Positions 6,932-18,946 of a DNA stretch of 64,000 nucleotides are shown piece by piece. Source of the stretch: Sphaerisporangium krabiense (GTDB lineage: Bacteria; Actinomycetota; Actinomycetes; Streptosporangiales; Streptosporangiaceae); NCBI RefSeq assembly GCF_014200435.1, contig NZ_JACHBR010000001.1:992001-1056000 (forward strand). Reading direction: 5' to 3'. Made by a program: the position numbers and the translations under genes. Within the stretch, counting starts at the first letter, position 1. The number at the start of each line of letters is the position of its first letter. The notes below the pieces were generated by a model. It was given only the letters and a program-made list of their open reading frames with translations. It ran no database searches and had not been told where the DNA came from.

Positions 6932-8875
6932 TCAGTCGGCGTGGTGAGGGTGGCCCTCGCAGTGGTCGGTCGTGGTGGCGGGGACGTTGAGGGTGGGGTT
7001 GCGGTCGAAGAAGCCGTAGGGCGTCAAGGAGAAGCGGACGTGGTCGACCGGCATCACCGGCCAGTCCTCGGGGCGCGGGAAGTGGGTCACGCCGAAGGTG
7101 TGCCACAGGACGACGTCCTCGCCGTCCAGGGGACGGTCGCCCGCGACGTACGCCGGCAGGCCGTCGCCGCCGGGGTTCTGGTTGACGAACTCGCCGGCCG
7201 CGTACCGCTCCTCGGGCGCGTACCGGGTGACCCACAGGTCCCGGGTGGTGAACGCCGCCCGCGCGGCGATCGACGAGGAGGGGTCGGCCAGCAGCGTCGG
7301 GTTCTGCTCGGCGCGCAGGACGTAGCCGGTCGGCCGGCCGAGCCGGTTGGTGCGCTCGGTGCTCACGACGTGCCAGGTCCGCCCGACCGAGGCGTCCGCG
7401 CTGCGCACCCCCTCGGCCTCGCTCGTGATCCGGGTCCTGGCGTAGCTGAAGGCGTTGCCGTACGGGTTCTCCGGCGAGACCGGCACCCGGACCGCGTCGA
7501 CCTCCTCGACCGCGTTGCGGACGCCGTCGACCATCATGTCGAGGCGAGCGCTGAACAGGTGCTGGTGGAACGGGGCGCCGAGGCCCGGGGCCACCTCGCT
7601 GGCGTAGGGCCACTCTTCCAGCCCGCGGTAGGCCGAGGTGAAGAGGATGCCGGTGAGCTTGGCCTCGCACTCGATCCTGCCGTCGAGGTAGAGGTACCAG
7701 TAGAAGCCGTAGTCGTAGTTGCCGACCGTGGTGAAGAACGAGATCACCAGGCGGCGCTGGCGGCGGACCTCGGCCGAGTTCGGGGTGTAGATGTCGGTGT
7801 GCTTCCAGAGCGTGCCGTAGTCCTCCTCGTGCAGGCAGATCGCGTTGGGGATCCGCTGCACGTCGCCGGCCTCGTCGGCCAGGTCGACATCGACGTAGTG
7901 GATCTCGCCGAGGCAGTCGCAGCCCAGGGTGAGCGAGTTCGCGAACCGGCCGAAGAGGTACTCGCCGGTGTCGAAGTAGTTCTGCCAGAACCGGACCGGC
8001 GCCGGGTCGCCGTACGGCACCACCATCTCGGCGATGGAGGCGCGGTAGACGATCGGACGGACCTCGCCGTCGTGGTCGGGGTCGGCGTAGGCCAGGTGGT
8101 GGAGCACCAGGCCCTCGCGGGCGTCGAACCCGAAGTTGAAGGACCAGTTCGCCCAGGTGATCCGGTCGCCTTCGACCTGGAACGACGGCCCGTCGGGCTG
8201 GGTGATCTCGATGGGCCGGAGGGTCTCCAACGGCGCCGGGCGCCCCTGCGGGAGGTGGAACCTGCTCGGCTCCTCCGGCAGCGGGAAGACGCCGACGTCG
8301 ATGACCTCGGTCGCCTTTCTCCCAACGAGGTCGACGTAGGCGCTCAGCCCGTCCACCGGGTGCGCCCAGATGTGATCGTCGGGGGCGAGGGCGGCGAAGC
8401 AGAGCACCCGGATGATCCGCCTGCCCTCCTCGCCGGGCAGGTCGAAGGCGCCGGCGGAGAGCGGCGCGCATCTCACGTGCTCCGGGGTCAGGCCGCGCTT
8501 GGCGAGCGCGTCGACCCAGGCCGGCTCCTCGGCGAGGATCCCGTCGACCGACACGAACTCCTCGACCAGGATCGGCATCCCGCCGTGGGCGCCGTCGACC
8601 TCGGCGATCGCGGCGACCGCTCCTGCGGTGAGGTCGACGGTCACGTCCCGGGCGGCGCCGGTCGCGGTGTCGAGCAGCAGCACCCGCGCCCGGCGGTCGG
8701 GCCTCGGCCCGGTGCCGGCCCGGAACGCGAGCACCTCCTGCTTGTGCGGCTCCAGCAGGCCGACGTAGACGAAGCGGACGCTCTCGCCGGCGAGGCCCGC
8801 CTCGCGCACCAGGGCGGTGGTGCGTTCGATCTCGGTCGCGGTGAGGCTGGAAACCGGGGTGGTCACGGTGGTCAT
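6932..8875 (-). CDS. copper-containing primary amine oxidase
   Basis: A 647-residue topaquinone enzyme that oxidises primary amines to aldehydes, releasing ammonia and hydrogen peroxide. Key residues are visible: Tyr387 in VGNYDYG, which becomes topaquinone; Asp302 in YFDTGEY, the catalytic base; copper ligands His437 and His439 in FHQHLF; and the third copper His in GVTHFPRPEDWPVMP near residue 600. Its length matches Arthrobacter phenylethylamine and histamine oxidases. No signal peptide, so probably cytoplasmic. The start MTTVTTPV follows GGATCC with only a weak ribosome site. A permease fragment lies directly upstream on the same strand, suggesting an ancestral uptake-plus-oxidation unit. 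Confidence 0.95.
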   Translation of the reverse strand: MTTVTTPVSSLTATEIERTTALVREAGLAGESVRFVYVGLLEPHKQEVLAFRAGTGPRPDRRARVLLLDTATGAARDVTVDLTAGAVAAIAEVDGAHGGMPILVEEFVSVDGILAEEPAWVDALAKRGLTPEHVRCAPLSAGAFDLPGEEGRRIIRVLCFAALAPDDHIWAHPVDGLSAYVDLVGRKATEVIDVGVFPLPEEPSRFHLPQGRPAPLETLRPIEITQPDGPSFQVEGDRITWANWSFNFGFDAREGLVLHHLAYADPDHDGEVRPIVYRASIAEMVVPYGDPAPVRFWQNYFDTGEYLFGRFANSLTLGCDCLGEIHYVDVDLADEAGDVQRIPNAICLHEEDYGTLWKHTDIYTPNSAEVRRQRRLVISFFTTVGNYDYGFYWYLYLDGRIECEAKLTGILFTSAYRGLEEWPYASEVAPGLGAPFHQHLFSARLDMMVDGVRNAVEEVDAVRVPVSPENPYGNAFSYARTRITSEAEGVRSADASVGRTWHVVSTERTNRLGRPTGYVLRAEQNPTLLADPSSSIAARAAFTTRDLWVTRYAPEERYAAGEFVNQNPGGDGLPAYVAGDRPLDGEDVVLWHTFGVTHFPRPEDWPVMPVDHVRFSLTPYGFFDRNPTLNVPATTTDHCEGHPHHAD

Positions 8876-9913: not shown

Positions 9914-10837
9914 TCTGGCCCGTACCTCCGCCGATCCAAAGCCGCAGACAGGGCCCGTCGTCCGCACCCATGGAGAGAACGAGGTCCCGCCGTGCGGACG
10001 GTGAGCACCGGCCATGGTGGCATGCCCGGCGACGGTCCTCCACAGGTTTTGGACGGCGTCGCCCGGCCGGCGGGACGGACACCGCCCGAGACTGCCTGAC
10101 ATGCCCCCTTTCGCGTAGACACGCCGGAGAAGGCGGATATATCACCCCACTGGGCGCTTTACAACATTTCGGCAAATACAACCAGACACGCCGAAGGTGT
10201 CCCTTTTACGCGATCAGCCGCCGGGCCGGCGCCCCTGAACACCGAGCTTGATCCAGATTCATGAGAAAATCTCATAAGCTCCGAAAAACCAGGACTAACA
10301 GAACATCTCCCCATGTACCGCACCATGTGTGCCAGTGACACGAATCTGTCACTCCATCTGCATCTGAGGACTTGCGTCAGCCCTGTCATCAATGATTAGG
10401 TCGTCTACATGACAAGCGTGCCGCCGTGTGCGACAGGTGAGAGTAAGGTCGGATTCACCGTGATTCACCCACGATGGATATCCACCCGGTCCTGATCGTC
10501 GACGACATCTCCACCGAACCGGCTCGAACTGCTTGAACGTAGCGTTACCAGAGAGTTAAGACTCCCCTCGCGTCACCCGCCACCGCCGTGGATCGACATT
10601 CAGTCCGGACATTGGACCGATTCAACCAGTCAAGGCGGGTCAGCAAGGGCACGAATTGGGCCTCGTGCCTCGAATGCCGAGGAACTTGTCCTCTCTCGAC
10701 GTTTCACCGCAGATCACCATTTATTCGCGAGAACCTTTATATGATCGCCCGGGAATTGCATTCACCATGCCCAAATTCCCGGCCGAACGCGATCATATGA
10801 ACGTTTCTCGGCTCCGGATCATTTTGGAGTCCCCTCC
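9914..10837. other. long AT-richer regulatory region ahead of the decarboxylase operon
   Basis: More than 900 bases without a supported gene, less GC-rich than both flanks from about 10,130 onward. It holds several short perfect repeats: ATGAGA-AAA-TCTCAT at 10261-10275, AGTGACA-N6-TGTCACT at 10334-10353, two copies of GATTCACC ten bases apart (10452 and 10462), and the large inverted repeat described separately at 10739-10798. This is an unusual density of regulatory-looking structure for this genome. Confidence 0.55.
10739..10798 (+). promoter_or_regulatory. long inverted repeat in the decarboxylase leader
   Basis: ATATGATCGC followed by CCGGGAATT (10739-10757) is complementary to AATTCCCGG (10774-10782) and GCGATCATAT (10789-10798), giving 19 paired bases with a 16-nt loop and one 6-nt bulge on the 3-prime side. 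It ends 28 bases before the GGAG ribosome site of the decarboxylase gene. There is no T-run, so it is more likely an operator or structured leader than a terminator. Confidence 0.55.
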
Positions 10838-12412
10838 GTGACGAGTTCGCTTTCCGATGTCCAGAGTTCCTTTCCGAAGCCGGCGACCGGTGAAAGCACC
10901 CAGCCACCCACGCCGGCCCTCACCGCGGCCTTCGACCCCGGACGTTTCCACGACGGCGCCGCGGACATCGTCAGCCGCCTGACGACGTATCTGGGTGACC
11001 GGTCGGTCCGGGGACTCGACCTCCAGCACCCGGAGACGCTGCTGAAGGCCGCGCGGGAGCTGATGACCCTCGAACGGCAGGGCATCGCCGACTTCGACGC
11101 CGATCGGGTGAACCAGATCGTCGACCTGTACACGGAGACCGGCATCCCGGTCCACTCACCCGGCTACATGGGGCGGCAGTTCTCCGGCGTGGTGCCACTG
11201 GCCAGCCTCATGGACCTGGTCGGCTCCGTGGTCAACCAGCCTTCCTCCTTCTATGAGGCCGGGCAGCTCCCGAACGTCGCCGAGCGGCTCATGGCCGAGG
11301 AGCTCAACCGGTTCATCGGCTGGGACCGCGACCGGTTCGCCATGGTGACGACCTCCGGGGGCTCCCTGGCCAACATGACCGCGCTGCTGGCCGCCCGCAA
11401 CCGCGCCTTCCCGCAGATCTGGACGGCCGGCGCCGACAGCACGCCCGGGCGCCCCGCCATCGCGGTCAGCGAGGAGGCCCACTACAGCGTGACGCGGGCG
11501 GCGGGCGTGCTCGGCATCGGGGAACGGCAGATCATCCGGCTGCCCGTCGATCGGGCCGGGCGGATACGCCCCGATCTGGCCGCCCCGGTGCTGGACGAGG
11601 CGCACCGGCGTGGCCTGCGACCCTTCTGCCTGGTGGCCTCGGCCGGGACCACGTCGATGGGCGCGTTCGACCCGCTGGAGGAGCTCGCGGCCCTGGCGCG
11701 CCGGTACGGGCTCTGGCTGCACGTGGACGGGGCGCACGGCGCGAGCCTGCTGCTGTCGGACCGGCACCGGCACCGGCTGCGCGGCATCGAGCAGGCCGAC
11801 TCGCTGACCTGGGACGCCCACAAGATGCTGTTCATGCCGGCGCCGTGCACGTTGCTCTTCTACCGCGACAAGGCGGCGGCGCGCGGCGCGTTCCGGCAGC
11901 GTGCCAGCTACGTCTTCGACGACGAACCGGACGTCTACAGCGCCTACGACAGCGCGGACAAGAACTTCGAGTGCACGAAACGTCCGATGATCATGCCGCT
12001 CTGGACGGTCTGGTCGGTCTACGGGCCCGCGCTGTTCGCACAGAAGATCGACCGGCTGTGCGCCGTGACCCGGCAGGCGCACGAGATGGTCGCCGCCGAG
12101 CCGGACTTCGCCGTCGCGCACGAACCGGAGTCGAACATCCTGTGCTTCCGGTACCGGCCGGACGGCCTGGACCCGGCGACCGTGCACCGGCTGCAGCTGG
12201 AGATCCGTAACCGGATCCGGGACGGCGGGCGTTTCTTCATCTCCAAGGTCGACATCGACGGGACGGCGGCGCTGCGCGTGGTGGTCATGAACCACCTGAT
12301 CAACGCCGACCACCTGGCCATGCTCATCACCGAAATCAGGGACATCGGGCAACGGGTGCTGCGCGCGAGCGCCACGGCCCGGCACGACCAGCGCAAGGGG
12401 AGTCATTCATGA
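10838..12412 (+). CDS. PLP-dependent group II amino acid decarboxylase
   Basis: A 524-residue fold-type I enzyme of the glutamate/aromatic/diaminobutyrate decarboxylase superfamily, which converts an amino acid to its amine and CO2. The PLP lysine is Lys329 in TWDAHKMLF; other family marks are TTSGGSLANMTALLAARN (phosphate loop), VASAGTTSMGAFDPLEEL, and LWLHVDGAHGAS with the cofactor Asp. The N-terminal VHSPGYMGRQFSG segment corresponds to the substrate-loop region. I cannot predict the amino acid. It starts at GTG 10838, with GGAG 8 bases upstream. Its stop overlaps the start of the next gene (ATGA), so the two are translationally coupled and head a six-gene operon. Confidence 0.88.
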   Translation: MTSSLSDVQSSFPKPATGESTQPPTPALTAAFDPGRFHDGAADIVSRLTTYLGDRSVRGLDLQHPETLLKAARELMTLERQGIADFDADRVNQIVDLYTETGIPVHSPGYMGRQFSGVVPLASLMDLVGSVVNQPSSFYEAGQLPNVAERLMAEELNRFIGWDRDRFAMVTTSGGSLANMTALLAARNRAFPQIWTAGADSTPGRPAIAVSEEAHYSVTRAAGVLGIGERQIIRLPVDRAGRIRPDLAAPVLDEAHRRGLRPFCLVASAGTTSMGAFDPLEELAALARRYGLWLHVDGAHGASLLLSDRHRHRLRGIEQADSLTWDAHKMLFMPAPCTLLFYRDKAAARGAFRQRASYVFDDEPDVYSAYDSADKNFECTKRPMIMPLWTVWSVYGPALFAQKIDRLCAVTRQAHEMVAAEPDFAVAHEPESNILCFRYRPDGLDPATVHRLQLEIRNRIRDGGRFFISKVDIDGTAALRVVVMNHLINADHLAMLITEIRDIGQRVLRASATARHDQRKGSHS

Positions 12413-13950
12413 CCATGACGGATCTGGACATCGCCGCCGCAGCGGAGCTGGCGGCACGGCTGATCCCGGAGGAGGAGCTGCGGCCCCGCTCCGTGGACGA
12501 CGTCACACGGCTGCCATCGTTCAGCGACAAGCTGGAGGAGTGCGGGCGGCTCATCGGGACCCCGTACTGCGAGTCCCCGCTCGACCTGCAGAACGCGCTG
12601 GTGTTCCGCCGGCTCCAGCAGCTCGTCGGCATCGCCCTGCTCAACCCGCTGTGGCGCGAGCGGCTGCACTACTTCGGGATTCGCGACGCCCCCGCCGACA
12701 TGTCCGAGTGGGAGCGGATCCCGCTCTCGGACAAGACCGTGCAGCGGGACATGTTCATGGGCGCGCGGGCCGGGATGGTCGTGCCGCTCGACCGCGGCGG
12801 GTTCGAGGTGGTCGCGAGCGGCGGCACCGGCGACGGCATGCCCCTGGAGATCGTGTACTCCCTGCGGGAGCTGCGCGACACCTACCGCATCGCCGGGGCG
12901 TTCATGGGCGCCTACCAGCTCGGCCGCTACCTGCGTGGCCCGGCGCCGCGCTGGCTGTTCACCACGCTGGCCGACTACCAGATGTGGAGCAGCGGGACCA
13001 TGGTCGGCGGCGTCCTGTCCCAGGTCCCGGGAGTCAACTACATCGGCGCGGGACCGGTGAGCGCACCGGTGCTGGAGCACATGTTCTCCTACCCCGGTCA
13101 CAAGGCGCTGATGGGCATCACCGCCAGCATCGCGCTGCTGCCCGAACTCGGCGCGGGACTGACGCCGCAGGCCAGGGCGAGCTTCCGGGTCGCCATGTAC
13201 GGCAGCGGCTCCCTTCCGCAGCGCAAGCGCGACGAGCTGCAGGCGTTCTTCCCCAACGTGTCGATCCTCAGCTACTTCGCCGCGACCCAGGCCGAGTGCG
13301 TCGGGCTCCAGCTCGACCACTCCTCGCCGGCGCTCTCCTCCGTGCCGGGGCTGCACCTGGTGGAGATCGTGGACGAGCACGGCCGTGCCGTCGCCGAGGG
13401 CGAGGAGGGCGAGCTGGTCGTCACCCGGCTGCACGCCGACGAGACGCCGCTGCTCCGGCTCAAGCTCGGCGACCGGATGATCCGCCGCCCCGCCCTGGAC
13501 GGGCCGGGGCTGCGCACCGAGCGGTTCGAGTTCGCCGGGCGCACCGCCGACGTGCTGCACCTCAACGACAGCCAGTACTCGGCGACGCTGGCCTACGCCG
13601 CCCTGCGCGCGCGGCTGCGCTCGGCGTCCGGCGTCGACCTGGACCTGGTCGCCCACGAGGTCCAGTTCCACAACCACCGTGAGGACCGGACCCTCACCCT
13701 GCTGGCGGCGGTGGACGACGCCGAGGGCACGAGCGCGGCCGTCGAGCGCACCCTCGGCACGAGCGGGACGCGGCGGCTGTTCACGCAGGCGCTGCCGAGC
13801 TCTCTGTCGCTCTTCAACGACCGGGAGGCGAACGCGGTGGCCATCGAGCAGACCGGATACGAGTTCCGGCTGGTGTTCGTGCCCCCCTCCTCGCCGCAGA
13901 TCGAGCGGACCACCGTCGGCAAAACGCCGCTGGTCAGGGACCGGGGCTGA
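12409..13950 (+). CDS. PaaK-like adenylate-forming enzyme
   Basis: A 513-residue protein of the phenylacetate-CoA ligase branch of the ANL superfamily, which activates a carboxylic acid as acyl-AMP. Diverged core motifs appear in order: VVASGGTGDGMPLEI (ATP loop), YGSGSLPQRKRDEL, ILSYFAATQAE (A5 region), EGELVVTRL followed by LLRLKLGDRM (A7 region, with the ribose-binding Asp), FAGRTADVLHLNDSQYSA (A8 hinge), and a C-terminal VGKTPLV that could supply the catalytic Lys. The motifs are weaker than in true PaaK, so activity and acceptor (CoA, amine or protein) are open. Coupled by ATGA overlap to the decarboxylase; the pairing suggests the amine and the activated acid meet in one product (inference). 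Confidence 0.75.
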   Translation: MTMTDLDIAAAAELAARLIPEEELRPRSVDDVTRLPSFSDKLEECGRLIGTPYCESPLDLQNALVFRRLQQLVGIALLNPLWRERLHYFGIRDAPADMSEWERIPLSDKTVQRDMFMGARAGMVVPLDRGGFEVVASGGTGDGMPLEIVYSLRELRDTYRIAGAFMGAYQLGRYLRGPAPRWLFTTLADYQMWSSGTMVGGVLSQVPGVNYIGAGPVSAPVLEHMFSYPGHKALMGITASIALLPELGAGLTPQARASFRVAMYGSGSLPQRKRDELQAFFPNVSILSYFAATQAECVGLQLDHSSPALSSVPGLHLVEIVDEHGRAVAEGEEGELVVTRLHADETPLLRLKLGDRMIRRPALDGPGLRTERFEFAGRTADVLHLNDSQYSATLAYAALRARLRSASGVDLDLVAHEVQFHNHREDRTLTLLAAVDDAEGTSAAVERTLGTSGTRRLFTQALPSSLSLFNDREANAVAIEQTGYEFRLVFVPPSSPQIERTTVGKTPLVRDRG

Positions 13951-13995
13951 GCACGTGGCGCCCCCCGAGCCCAGGAAATCCGACAAGGAGGATGG

Positions 13996-14502
13996 ATGAA
14001 GCAAAAGGTCAGCATCGTCGTGATGGTCGACGCCGTCGGGGCGTTGTCCGACCGGACGCTGCACAACGGCAACATCTCGCTGATCGATGACAGCGTGGCG
14101 GGGAGCCGGCACCAGGGCACCCCCGACCTCATCACGGCGGTGGTGCCGGGGCAGGTCGTCCAGTGGACGCCGATCCACGTGGACGTGCAGACGCCGGTCG
14201 AGATCCAGGCCATCGAGTTCCTGCCGGGCGCGGCGGTCCCGCCCCCGGCCGACTCGGACGACCCGGCCGTGCCGCCGGCACCGCCCGCACCGGCGTACCC
14301 GGTGGAGCCGCCCCCCGCCGTTCCCGCGCCCGACGCCACGGGTTCCAACGGGCACGAGAACCACGACCTGCTGGTGTGGGAGGGCGTCGTGCCCTACTCC
14401 ATGGTGCCCGGCGTGCCGTACCGGTACCGGCTCTCGCTCAAGCTCCACGAAGGACCCAACAGCGTGCTGCACATCGACTCGCCCGCGCTGCTGCGCGTGT
14501 GA
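13996..14502 (+). CDS. small tandem paralogue 1 of the decarboxylase operon
   Basis: A 168-residue protein without signal peptide or membrane segment. Its N-terminal half (VSIVVMVDAVGALSDRTLHNG, then PDLITAVVPGQVVQWTPI) and its C-terminal end (PYRYRLSLKL, then DSPALLRV) match the three genes that follow. Between them is a Pro/Ala-rich insertion (about residues 77-114) that looks disordered. The predicted fold is mostly beta strand. The AIDA/PixA inclusion-protein family has a similar size and strand pattern, but I cannot show homology. A strong AAGGAGG lies just before the ATG. It begins 45 bases after the adenylating enzyme. Confidence 0.75.
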   Translation: MKQKVSIVVMVDAVGALSDRTLHNGNISLIDDSVAGSRHQGTPDLITAVVPGQVVQWTPIHVDVQTPVEIQAIEFLPGAAVPPPADSDDPAVPPAPPAPAYPVEPPPAVPAPDATGSNGHENHDLLVWEGVVPYSMVPGVPYRYRLSLKLHEGPNSVLHIDSPALLRV

Positions 14503-14527
14503 GCCAGGTTCTGCGAAAGGCGGTTTC

Positions 14528-15310
14528 ATGGCCCAGCAACACGGGATCATCGTGCTGTTCGACGTCGAGAACGCGCTTCGGACGCGGTCGCTCGACGGCA
14601 ACACATACTGGTTCGACAACATGAAGTTCCTCGGTTCGACCGGGGAGGGCACCGGCGATCTGGTGACGATCGTGCCCGGCACCTATTTCCTCGACGGGTC
14701 GCAGGCGACCGAGCAGGTGCTGAACTGGCTGCCCGCGGCGCTGGGGGCGATTCCCCCGACGGTGCCGCGCAACTACCTGGCCGAGCGGGAACGCGCCCAT
14801 GACCAGCGCACGCTGCAGCAGTTGGCCGCGCTCGGCGGCGAGGGCGAGGCGAGCGGCGCCGAGCTCACGCGGCTGAAGCAGCGGGTCGGCAGGCGTCCGC
14901 GCAAGCAGGCCGGCGGGCGCGGCCTCACCGCGACCAAGCTGCTGGACGTCACCGGGAGTACGACCACCAGCGCCGCCGCGTACAACTATCCGGCCCCGGT
15001 GATCACCGACATCACCGGCCAGGCCGTCAGCGAGAAGATCATCTATCCGGCCCAGTACGGGTCGCCCGACATGGTCTACGACGGCTGGTACTGGGCCGCG
15101 ACCGTGGACACGAGCCGGCCGGGGGTCTACCCGTACACGATGCACGTCCAGCTGCACGAGCTGGTCGAGCAGAACAACGAGCTGGTCTGGCAGTCCGTGG
15201 ACCTGACCTGCGAGTCCAGCCTCAAGATCACCAGCGACCCCAAGCGCAACGCCTTCACCGGCGCCGGACTGGGCGTCCTCCCCCTCCCCGCCTTCCCTCC
15301 CGCCGGCTGA
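14528..15310 (+). CDS. small tandem paralogue 2, with a basic insertion
   Basis: At 260 residues this is the longest of the four copies. The shared N-terminal block is IIVLFDVENALRTRSLDGNT with TGDLVTIVPG, and the shared C-terminal block is YWAATVDTSRPGVYPYTMHVQL. Between them, about residues 83-140, is a charged, probably helical insertion (ERERAHDQRTLQQLAALGGE, later KQRVGRRPRKQ) that none of the others has and that could bind nucleic acid or a polyanion (inference). The start is the ATG at 14528 with GAAAGGCGG upstream; a longer open frame before it overlaps the previous gene and is noise. Confidence 0.75.
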   Translation: MAQQHGIIVLFDVENALRTRSLDGNTYWFDNMKFLGSTGEGTGDLVTIVPGTYFLDGSQATEQVLNWLPAALGAIPPTVPRNYLAERERAHDQRTLQQLAALGGEGEASGAELTRLKQRVGRRPRKQAGGRGLTATKLLDVTGSTTTSAAAYNYPAPVITDITGQAVSEKIIYPAQYGSPDMVYDGWYWAATVDTSRPGVYPYTMHVQLHELVEQNNELVWQSVDLTCESSLKITSDPKRNAFTGAGLGVLPLPAFPPAG

Positions 15311-15350
15311 CCCGGCCCGAGCCGGAGCATCTTCGAAACAGAGGAGCCGC

Positions 15351-15809
15351 ATGCCCCCGAGGAACCGCCAGTCCGAACACCGGCCCGCACGGCCTGTGAC
15401 GATCACCGCCGTGGTCGACCCCGTGGCCGCGCTGGCGTCGGAGAACCTGGACGACAACCTCTATCTCTACGACACCAACAAGGCCGCCGGGTCCTCCGGT
15501 TTCGGCACTCCCGAGCTGCACAGCCGGGTCCGCAAGGGCGACACCCTGCTGTGGAACGTGATCCCGCTGGAGTGCGAGACCTACGTGGCCCTCGCCGACA
15601 TCGAGATCGACCCGAAGATCGCCGAGCCCACGCGGAAGGTGTACCCCGACACCGACATCGTGTTCTGGACCGCCGAGGTCAAGCAGGACCTCACCACGCC
15701 GGTGCCCTACCGGCTCTCGTTCCTGCTCGGCACCGTCGCCACGCCGTTCACCCCCACCGCACGGCCGGCCCTCACCGGCCACGCCGACGAAGGAAAGGAA
15801 GGCCGATGA
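15351..15809 (+). CDS. small tandem paralogue 3
   Basis: A 152-residue copy with the block VTITAVVDPVAALASENLDDN, then YLYDTNKAAGSSGFGTPEL and KGDTLLWNVIPLECETYVALADIEI, then FWTAEVKQDLTTPVPYRLSF. It is the most compact version, essentially the common core, with a basic N-terminus (PPRNRQSEHRPARP). A GAGGAG ribosome site precedes the ATG. Its stop codon overlaps the start of paralogue 4 (ATGA), so the last two copies are translationally coupled. No catalytic motif is conserved between the copies, which points to a structural or binding role. Confidence 0.75.
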   Translation: MPPRNRQSEHRPARPVTITAVVDPVAALASENLDDNLYLYDTNKAAGSSGFGTPELHSRVRKGDTLLWNVIPLECETYVALADIEIDPKIAEPTRKVYPDTDIVFWTAEVKQDLTTPVPYRLSFLLGTVATPFTPTARPALTGHADEGKEGR

Positions 15810-16354
15810 CCCAGGCGTACGCGGCCACGGACTTCGCCGACCGCGGCCAGCTCAACTCCGTCCAGCTGAACGTGGTGACCCTCATCGACATGGAGAAGGC
15901 CGCCGCGACCAAGTCCCTGGACGGCTGCCTCTACATGATGGACAACAGCGTCGGCGGGGTCGGGCAGGGCGGCGACCATCTGGAGACCATCTGCAAGCAG
16001 GGGCAGGTGATCAACTGGATCATCCGCCCGATCGACATGCACCGCCGTCCGGACGGCACCTGGCCCCCGATGCCGAAGATCAACAACCTGGTCTTCCTGG
16101 ACATCGAGAAGGGCGACGAGGACGACGTCGCCGAGCGCCGGATCATGACCGAACTCAAGGTCTACGGCGCTCCCGACCGGATGCGCGACCAGTACACCGC
16201 CGTCTACTACTACTGGGCCGGAGCGGTGATGAGCGACGCCAAGCCGGGCGTCTACCGCTACCGGTTCGTCCTGGAGCTGGAGAAGGAACACGGCACCGAC
16301 AAGCTGTACCTGAACTCGGTCCGCTACCCCGCCCTGCGGGTACTGCCCGTCTGA
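15806..16354 (+). CDS. small tandem paralogue 4
   Basis: A 182-residue copy with VVTLIDMEKAAATKSLDGCL, YMMDNSVGGVGQGGDHLETI, KQGQVINWIIRPIDMH, an acidic middle part (IEKGDEDDVAERR) and the terminal block YYWAGAVMSDAKPGVYRYRF followed by YPALRVLPV. Compared with paralogue 3 it has extra loops but the same order of strands. It is the last gene of the operon, followed after 39 bases by a strong hairpin. Confidence 0.75.
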   Translation: MTQAYAATDFADRGQLNSVQLNVVTLIDMEKAAATKSLDGCLYMMDNSVGGVGQGGDHLETICKQGQVINWIIRPIDMHRRPDGTWPPMPKINNLVFLDIEKGDEDDVAERRIMTELKVYGAPDRMRDQYTAVYYYWAGAVMSDAKPGVYRYRFVLELEKEHGTDKLYLNSVRYPALRVLPV

Positions 16355-16393: not shown

Positions 16394-16432
16394 GCCGGTC
16401 ATGGCCACCGCCCGGCGGCGGCCATGACCGGC
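16394..16432 (+). terminator. terminator closing the decarboxylase operon
   Basis: A perfect 13-bp stem (GCCGGTCATGGCC / GGCCATGACCGGC) with a 13-nt loop lies 39 bases after the last paralogue. It separates the operon from the MBL-fold gene downstream. Confidence 0.8.
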
Positions 16433-17785: not shown

Positions 17786-18718
17786 TCAGATGGTGCAGTT
17801 CTTCTGGGCGTCGGTGCGGACTCTGGCGCCGGTGAACTCCTCCAGGATGGCGAGGTTCTCGGGGGCGTAGTTGGTCTGGGTGATCTTGTCGGCGTTGGGG
17901 CCGCCCAGCTTGCCGGTGTAGGGGGCCGACTTCTCCAGCCAGTACGCCGTGCGGAGCCACTGGGTGAGGACCAGGGTGCGGAGTTTCGGCTCGTTCTTGA
18001 TCTTGGTCCAGTAGTCGGGGTGGCGGTCCTTGGCGACGCGGAGGTAGAGGAGGAGGTAGCGCAGGTTGGTGGCGGCGATGTCGCGGGCGTTGCTGGCTCC
18101 GATGCCCTTGATGTACTCCTGGACGACCGTCACGGCGGGCAGGCCCATGAGGCCCGCGTTCAGCTCGGCCAGGACGCCTTGCAGGTGGTACTCGCCCTGG
18201 GTCTGGTCGCGCAGGTAGATGCCGTCCATGGAGTCGCTGAGCCGGTCCTTGATCAGCGGGAGGATCTCCTTGCGGGGGAAGCCGTCGTACAGCGGCACCG
18301 TCGTGTCCTGCCGGGAGGCGTTGATCCAGGCCGCGGTGTACACGTTCCACCTGGTCCGCGCCGGGTCGAGGTCCCACATGTGGGTTTCCTCGTGGATCGC
18401 CACCATCATCGACTCGGCGAACGCCTCGAAGCTGTTCTTCTGCACGAACTGGTTCCAGTACTGGTCCCTGACCTGGGCGACGGCCAGCCCCTGGCCGCTC
18501 GGCCACCGGCGCTGGTACATCGCCTGCAGGGTCTGCATCCAGTTGGCGGAGGTGAACCTCGCCTTGAGGTCGCTCACGTCCGCGGTGGGCTGCGACGGTT
18601 CCTCGTAACAGTAGGGCGCGGCGGAGCGCGTGACAGGCGCCGCGGCGGCGATGGTCGTCGCCGCCGGTGCCAGCGCGAGGAGCACGGTCACGACAGACAG
18701 ACCGCGTGTTCGACTCAC
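17786..18718 (-). CDS. secreted protein with an HExxH zinc-protease motif
   Basis: A 310-residue protein with a Sec signal peptide (SRTRGLSVVTVLLALAPAATTIAAAA). The mature part holds MMVAIHEETHMWDLDPA near residue 108; H-E-E-T-H fits the HExxH zinc motif of metallopeptidases. The rest is mostly helical and rich in Tyr, Trp and Asn, with a C-terminal TDAQKNCTI. I recognise no peptidase family, and a third zinc ligand is not obvious, so the motif may be structural. The GTG at 18718 is chosen because GAGG lies 7 bases before it and it begins the signal peptide; an ATG at 18763 would add 15 residues. Confidence 0.72.
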   Translation of the reverse strand: MSRTRGLSVVTVLLALAPAATTIAAAAPVTRSAAPYCYEEPSQPTADVSDLKARFTSANWMQTLQAMYQRRWPSGQGLAVAQVRDQYWNQFVQKNSFEAFAESMMVAIHEETHMWDLDPARTRWNVYTAAWINASRQDTTVPLYDGFPRKEILPLIKDRLSDSMDGIYLRDQTQGEYHLQGVLAELNAGLMGLPAVTVVQEYIKGIGASNARDIAATNLRYLLLYLRVAKDRHPDYWTKIKNEPKLRTLVLTQWLRTAYWLEKSAPYTGKLGGPNADKITQTNYAPENLAILEEFTGARVRTDAQKNCTI

Positions 18719-18946
18719 CGGGACCTCATTCCCGAGCGGACGCGCCGCCGGCAAGCACGGCACGGACAGCCGCCGCTCTCTTCGTCGTCACGGTGGATGG
18801 TACGGACCGGCGCCTGCCCGCGCCTCATCCCAATTTCGGCATAGCTTCGGCGCACCCCCGGCACGAACGGTGTTGACGGGGGTCACGGCGTCTCATACGT
18901 TCCCCGTGGGTCGTCCTCCGGGCGTCCAGGGATCGCGGAGGGTGCG

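Follow-up and report, generated by a model that had tools for sequence, protein, structure and literature searches.

A six-gene cassette of a decarboxylase, a PaaK-type enzyme and four MakCD/PixA-type paralogues in Sphaerisporangium krabiense and other bacteria

MakC and MakD of Vibrio cholerae, two copies of a small protein encoded beside pore-forming toxin genes in the mak operon, are called proteins of unknown function and are discussed as accessory proteins (PMC11484084). PixA proteins are described as poorly understood in another paper, which presents Bnr1, an acidic member of the PixA family, as a proposed DNA mimic that binds histone-like proteins, and BCAS0292 and aidA as a two-gene operon (PMC9060813). 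Here we describe a locus in which four copies of such a protein stand behind two enzymes. It lies in a stretch of 64,000 nucleotides (the window) from the 8.53 Mb genome of the actinobacterium Sphaerisporangium krabiense (contig NZ_JACHBR010000001.1, positions 992,001 to 1,056,000) and encodes a group II pyridoxal phosphate (PLP)-dependent decarboxylase (DEC), a PaaK-type acyl-adenylating enzyme (PAAK) and four small paralogues (S1 to S4). The initial annotation had singled out this operon as its best candidate for an undescribed system, and our comparisons support the idea of a coherent one: enzymes and S proteins stand together in all 20 loci of the order that were inspected with wide flanks and in all 76 complete loci of a broader survey.

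Each of the six proteins belongs to a known fold family; only the cut-off of the broad PF00282 family is passed, and no named functional family is reached. Against the MakCD model (NF049870; structures 8rqy and 6tct), S1 to S4 score 37.7, 40.8, 60 and 50.3 bits, so that even the best remains below the curated NCBIfam cut-off of 110 bits. The PixA/AidA/Bnr1 family (PF12306; 4lzk, 4pib) is matched neither by the four proteins of the window at E <= 1 nor by any of 32 aligned S4 sequences at E <= 0.1. No pore-forming toxin family is among the matches of the six products, the flanks of relatives not having been scanned for it. The decarboxylase treated in one paper is a UDP-glucuronic acid decarboxylase and unrelated (PMC6127331). 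Searches of the open-licence literature turned up no description of the six-gene set. To our knowledge, no known system pairs these two enzymes with four fixed PixA-fold paralogues. We regard the set as new as a system, with the reservation that its function is only proposed.

A six-gene cassette present in several phyla

The six genes run in one direction between 10838 and 16354, in the order DEC, PAAK, S1, S2, S3, S4. As the initial annotation had described, they are tightly packed, with ATGA overlaps at 12409 (DEC/PAAK) and 15806 (S3/S4) and remaining gaps of 45, 25 and 40 bases. Comparison with two congeners (L038 and L037, the nearest by PAAK identity) gives ratios of nonsynonymous to synonymous substitution rates of 0.05 to 0.37 for all six, which therefore are protein-coding genes under constraint.

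Within the order, PAAK has orthologues in 31 of 297 genomes, the window's own included, at 68-100% identity and with E below 1e-200; no match falls between these orthologues and a background of E 1e-10 or weaker. DEC, PAAK, S1 and S2 follow each other in order in 30 of 30 loci (own included) that were viewed with 1.5 kb flanks, and the wide-flank loci, a subset of these, extend this to all six genes. Other neighbours vary, an amine oxidase being present in 3 and an MBL gene in 8 of the 20 wider loci; a chance neighbourhood is thus ruled out, because flanking genes change while the six stay together. Among these relatives the conservation of S4 equals that of the enzymes, but across phyla it falls behind. 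The cassette is rare: in a sample of 396 genomes of the phylum, a match at E 1e-15 was found in the window's own genome alone. Among 296 phylum genomes NF049870 matched only that genome.

Beyond the order, a scan of one genome per species with two exact PAAK peptide patterns returned 73 loci. PAAK is present in these by construction, and more distant PAAK relatives lacking S genes could be missed, so that the parts put to the test are DEC and S1 to S4. According to their record titles, the loci divide into 49 from Actinomycetota, 12 from Pseudomonadota, 7 from Bacteroidota, one each from Acidobacteriota, Cyanobacteriota, Chloroflexota and Aminicenantes, and one other; those of Cyanobacteriota, Chloroflexota and Aminicenantes come from metagenome-assembled genomes (MAGs). 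With four records from a plasmid collection the survey comprises 77 loci, all of which were scanned; this survey and the short- and wide-flank surveys of the order share species and are not independent. DEC, PAAK and S1 to S4 follow each other in this order on one strand in 76 of the 77, and the order of the S genes is never broken. In the remaining locus (L137), the contig stops inside PAAK. Two further loci have a DEC cut by the contig end (L115 and L118), and PAAK of L118 is in two frames. A recount of open reading frames above 60 bits with a general S model gave at least four in 75 of 77 loci, and the weaker S2 of L128 (46 bits) is nevertheless assigned by the family models. A cruder counting rule had given three S domains in 45 loci and two in one, owing to overlapping neighbouring frames, and is superseded by this assignment. 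The initial annotation had held that small proteins never found with the enzymes in other genomes would speak against a joint system; the opposite was observed, the two being together in every complete locus.

We conclude that the six genes form a self-contained cassette, which six or more named phyla contain. Pseudomonadota are scattered over several places of the PAAK tree, which suggests, without proving it, transfer between phyla. Plasmid records were searched by tblastn, in which PAAK and S4 queries retrieved the same seven records: Nonomuraea gerenzanensis (11.85 Mb, chromosome-sized), five from Bradyrhizobium and one from Sinorhizobium. Four of these were examined. Three rhizobial records contain six adjacent annotated genes in the order DEC, PAAK, S1 to S4, and an unannotated stretch of the Nonomuraea record encodes the same six. 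Four of the seven plasmid-collection matches carry a conjugative typing. They include plasmids of soybean-nodule Bradyrhizobium, whose annotation lists five of the six proteins as hypothetical. Three loci (L061 to L063) are on large plasmids of nodule-bacterium genera. The cassette has probably spread by horizontal transfer.

This distribution might call to mind a defence or conflict module on mobile DNA, given its patchiness across phyla and the two plasmid copies within 10 kb of toxin-antitoxin genes. We regard this as very improbable, because PADLOC gave weak matches only (SspA and DndA to DEC, best E 1.9e-4, a match of the PLP fold; PDC-M15A to S2, 0.0064) and neither the PAAK patterns in viral contigs nor S4 in phage records retrieved a copy. 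A known defence system seems unlikely on the same PADLOC result, which includes no convincing match to any of the six, and a phage origin was rejected, the viral-contig scan having produced one pattern match and no relative, and the phage records no S4 match.

The two enzymes and their variable neighbours

The enzyme classes named by the initial annotation stand. DEC matches PF00282 with 200.3 bits (E 5.1e-59; gathering cut-off 27) and human GAD1 (3vp6) with E 1.4e-65. H215, D297, K329, Y358 and R480, aligned to GAD1, are invariant in 28 aligned sequences; from GAD67 we take them to be, respectively, the PLP-stacking His, the Asp at the PLP nitrogen, the Schiff-base Lys, the catalytic-loop Tyr and the substrate Arg. 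By family and intact residues, DEC is a group II PLP decarboxylase, sharing fold family and catalytic residues with GAD, CSAD, PanP and L-2,4-diaminobutyrate (DABA) decarboxylase. The PanP and DABA decarboxylase models are matched by 28 of 28 DEC sequences; DEC of the window, however, scores far below both equivalog cut-offs of NCBIfam (176.6 of 606.1 and 175.6 of 900 bits) and has its own invariant R113-Q114-F115-S116 in all 28. Arg113 belongs to a GYMGRQFSG signature and may point to a substrate that is acidic or anionic.

PAAK has a PaaK-type fold of the ANL superfamily. It remains under the gathering cut-off of PF00501 (17.7 of 29.9 bits) and far under that of the phenylacetate-CoA ligase model TIGR02155 (19.5 of 646.3 bits). 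Identity to PaaK1, BT_0428, NatL2, AjiA1, ClxA and GH3 amido synthetases is just 10-20%, and additional N-terminal helices precede the part that aligns to PaaK1. Unlike PaaK-type AMP-ligases and GH3 enzymes, it contains an invariant stretch of its own, LADYQMWSSGTMVGG, in 17 aligned sequences. Decarboxylation and carboxylate activation are the two classes of chemistry that family and residues establish.

Around this core, several variants occur (Table 1). Two Tenacibaculum loci (L129 and L134) have two diverged DEC-PAAK pairs ahead of a single S1-S4 set, and the catalytic residues are intact in either copy of L129. In three loci (L108, L110 and L111) a class I/II aminotransferase, matching PF00155 in 3 of 3 cases, is inserted between PAAK and S1; these loci belong to bacteria that are distant by their record titles, and their PAAKs fall in one part of the tree. 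An isochorismatase-like hydrolase cluster lies near 17 of the 77 loci and is the commonest neighbour outside Actinomycetota; all four members tested, shortly downstream of S4, match PF00857.

Such neighbours, together with the wide occurrence of the cassette and the plasmids typed conjugative, would fit an ordinary small biosynthetic cluster, in which DEC and PAAK make a coenzyme A (CoA) thioester or an amide and the S proteins are accessory, serving self-protection or as folding or secretion helpers, as discussed for MakC and MakD (PMC11484084). We consider this somewhat unlikely. Four distinct paralogues in strict order over such distances would be unusual for accessory genes, S4 is within the order (less so across phyla) conserved like the enzymes, and there is no transporter or regulator among the six.

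The four small proteins

The small proteins, which the initial annotation took for four paralogues, have a MakC-like beta-sandwich of the MakCD/PixA fold, and each has its own orthologue family. Where sequence or Foldseek matches are lacking, we do not take this to prove a new fold. Family models were seeded by position from 30 loci, and the other 46 loci were out of sample only in the first round. Every S protein scores at least 74 bits higher with its own family than with any other, and members of the separate S1 family occur in each of the 76 complete loci. A tree was built from 92 S proteins of 23 loci. In it, S2, S3 and S4 each form one side of a branch (Shimodaira-Hasegawa-like approximate likelihood ratio test support 100, 99 and 99), and the four kinds need three changes, the minimum. 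S1 does not form one side of a branch (two changes, S4 joining within S1), in a tree of few columns. Since the kinds separate in this way, they most likely were distinct before the cassette spread; a recent duplication of the S genes is ruled out by the same tree for S2, S3 and S4, S1 not being one side of a branch.

Are the S proteins found elsewhere? In 22 hand-picked cassette genomes from among the 73 loci, an S4 profile (E <= 0.001) found four clustered matches each (22 of 22) and no S-type protein outside the cassette; one genome shows five matches because one gene is split in two. Samples of two other classes, centre genomes included, gave matches in 2 of 289 and in 1 of 274 genomes. Two of the three are the cassette-holding centres, and the third encodes a lone S-like protein of 128 residues (L168/L174), with neither DEC nor PAAK in the surrounding 11 kb. 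The fold thus occurs without these enzymes, in PixA and AidA, in MakC and MakD and in this lone protein, but S1 to S4 were not seen apart in the surveyed loci.

None of the four has a signal or membrane segment. In the alignment S2 stands out through an insert that is long and variable and, at its C-terminus, a motif of the NGFTG..LP type. Across 47 aligned sequences no S family has an invariant Lys, Cys or Ser, and Thr61 of S4 is the sole invariant residue of the Lys, Cys, Ser and Thr kinds; Cys63 of S4 (45 of 47) and Ser48 of S3 are nearly so. A fixed attachment site is therefore possible on S4 and unlikely on S1 to S3. This bears on an alternative whereby the enzymes modify the S proteins, PAAK placing its activated acid on, or coupling the DEC amine to, one or more S residues, and the charged proteins then assembling. 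In its favour, none of the 76 complete loci separates the enzymes from the S proteins, no carrier protein was recognised among the six, and the structural neighbours of PAAK include GH3 and NatL2, whose acceptors are not carrier proteins. However, protein-charging ANL enzymes normally use a phosphopantetheine arm, and none was recognised here; together with the scarcity of invariant acceptor residues, this makes modification of the S proteins unlikely.

The window's S1 to S4 are acidic, with isoelectric points (pI) of 4.8-5.4, like Bnr1, the proposed DNA mimic (PMC9060813). Conceivably, they might be Bnr1-like, protein-binding regulators that adjust the cell to a small molecule made by the enzymes. 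This seems to us quite improbable: the surface charge of Bnr1 was modelled rather than solved, the acidity of the S proteins is no more than moderate and does not extend to all hosts (depending on the S family, 31 to 43 of 46 relatives have a pI under 6), and four such regulators per pathway would be unusual. A catalytic or self-processing activity, as the structural similarity to SO1698 entries titled aspartic peptidase might suggest, is hardly to be expected either, because the likeness is at fold level only (12-14% identity) and the S4 sequence profile misses SO1698 at E <= 10.

Proposed function and genomic setting

How might enzymes and S proteins act together? We tentatively favour a scenario whereby one enzyme supplies an amine and the other an activated acid, the two probably being linked into an amide. 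S1 to S4 would assemble in the cytosol into a hetero-oligomer by which the product is carried, stored or received. DEC would decarboxylate an amino acid to an amine or an amino acid derivative. PAAK would activate a carboxylic acid as acyl-adenylate and pass the acyl group on; the likeliest acceptor is the DEC amine, which would give the amide. The S proteins, as separately maintained beta-sandwich proteins of the MakCD/PixA fold, would form a defined hetero-oligomer, as one-of-each conservation and the dimers known in the family suggest, and this assembly would bind, store or carry the product.

Several points weigh against this scenario. PAAK has phenylacetate-CoA ligase as its best structural match and could be a plain CoA ligase. 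The fold is independent of the enzymes, as MakC, MakD and the lone S-like protein occur without them, and by itself it is uninformative on ligand binding, Bnr1 of the same family being proposed to mimic DNA (PMC9060813). Finally, pairwise identities correlate at 0.90 between DEC and PAAK, at 0.82 between S2 and S4 and at 0.53 between DEC and S4 (21 loci outside the main actinobacterial clade, including one Actinobacteria MAG, L125; the loci with truncated DEC, L115 and L118, were dropped). The cassette thus resolves into an enzyme block and an S block, and given the lower DEC-S4 value the two need not touch.

A bolder version of this scenario, which we hold to be doubtful, has the four different PixA-fold subunits build a single particle or inclusion with an enzyme-made small amide or acylated amine as cargo; the doubled enzyme pair of Tenacibaculum would then change or widen the cargo. 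An inclusion had been suggested in the initial annotation. The idea is reasonable in so far as PixA, the namesake of the fold family, is an inclusion-body protein, whereas the inclusion itself is conjectural.

The operon is flanked by two inverted repeats. RNA of 10720-10837, which spans the upstream repeat, has a predicted fold of -49.2 kcal/mol (z -6.37 against 200 shuffles); the repeat is partly kept in orthologues, its core pairing perfectly, by eye, in the window and L037 and not in L039. For the downstream repeat, a terminator scan made no call. The copper amine oxidase upstream of DEC could act on an amine product, yet the wider loci mostly lack it, as noted above.

Table 1. Positions of the cassette genes and of the features around them or in related loci
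Feature	Sequence	Positions	Strand	Remarks
DEC, group II PLP-dependent decarboxylase, 524 aa	window	10838..12412	+	GTG start
PAAK, PaaK-type acyl-adenylating enzyme, 513 aa	window	12409..13950	+	ATGA overlap with DEC
S1, acidic MakCD/PixA-type small protein, 168 aa	window	13996..14502	+	NF049870 E 1.8e-9
S2, paralogue, 260 aa	window	14528..15310	+	NF049870 E 2e-10
S3, paralogue, 152 aa	window	15351..15809	+	NF049870 E 2.2e-16
S4, paralogue, 182 aa	window	15806..16354	+	ATGA overlap with S3; best conserved of the four
Nested inverted repeat 5' of operon	window	10732..10805	.	arms of 17 and 13 bases; possible operator or hairpin of the 5' untranslated region
Inverted repeat 3' of operon	window	16394..16432	.	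19-base arms, 95% complementary, 1-base loop; possible transcript end
Copper amine oxidase	window	6932-8875	-	PF01179 E 1.2e-155
Predicted 325-residue protein	window	17786-18763	-	no Pfam or NCBIfam match at E <= 1
Two DEC-PAAK pairs	L129	3241-9497		Tenacibaculum
Two DEC-PAAK pairs	L134	3241-9506		Tenacibaculum
Class I/II aminotransferase	L108	9570-10733
Class I/II aminotransferase	L110	5021-6205
Class I/II aminotransferase	L111	9554-10756
Isochorismatase-like hydrolase	L061	14168-14716		downstream of S4
Isochorismatase-like hydrolase	L062	13913-14473		downstream of S4
Isochorismatase-like hydrolase	L108	13193-13741		downstream of S4
Isochorismatase-like hydrolase	L119	11961-12509		downstream of S4
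Lone S-like protein	L168 / L174	1510-1896 (L168)

The PixA/AidA/MakCD fold has been linked with inclusion bodies, the killing of nematodes, quorum sensing and the secretion of toxins, and is without an agreed biochemical function. The cassette, a compact and conserved unit that is also present on rhizobial plasmids, provides this fold with a strict set of enzymatic partners, which we did not find in open-licence papers, and the question of what the S proteins bind or build thereby becomes testable. If the particle reading were true, the cassette would represent a metabolite-loaded protein assembly of a new kind.

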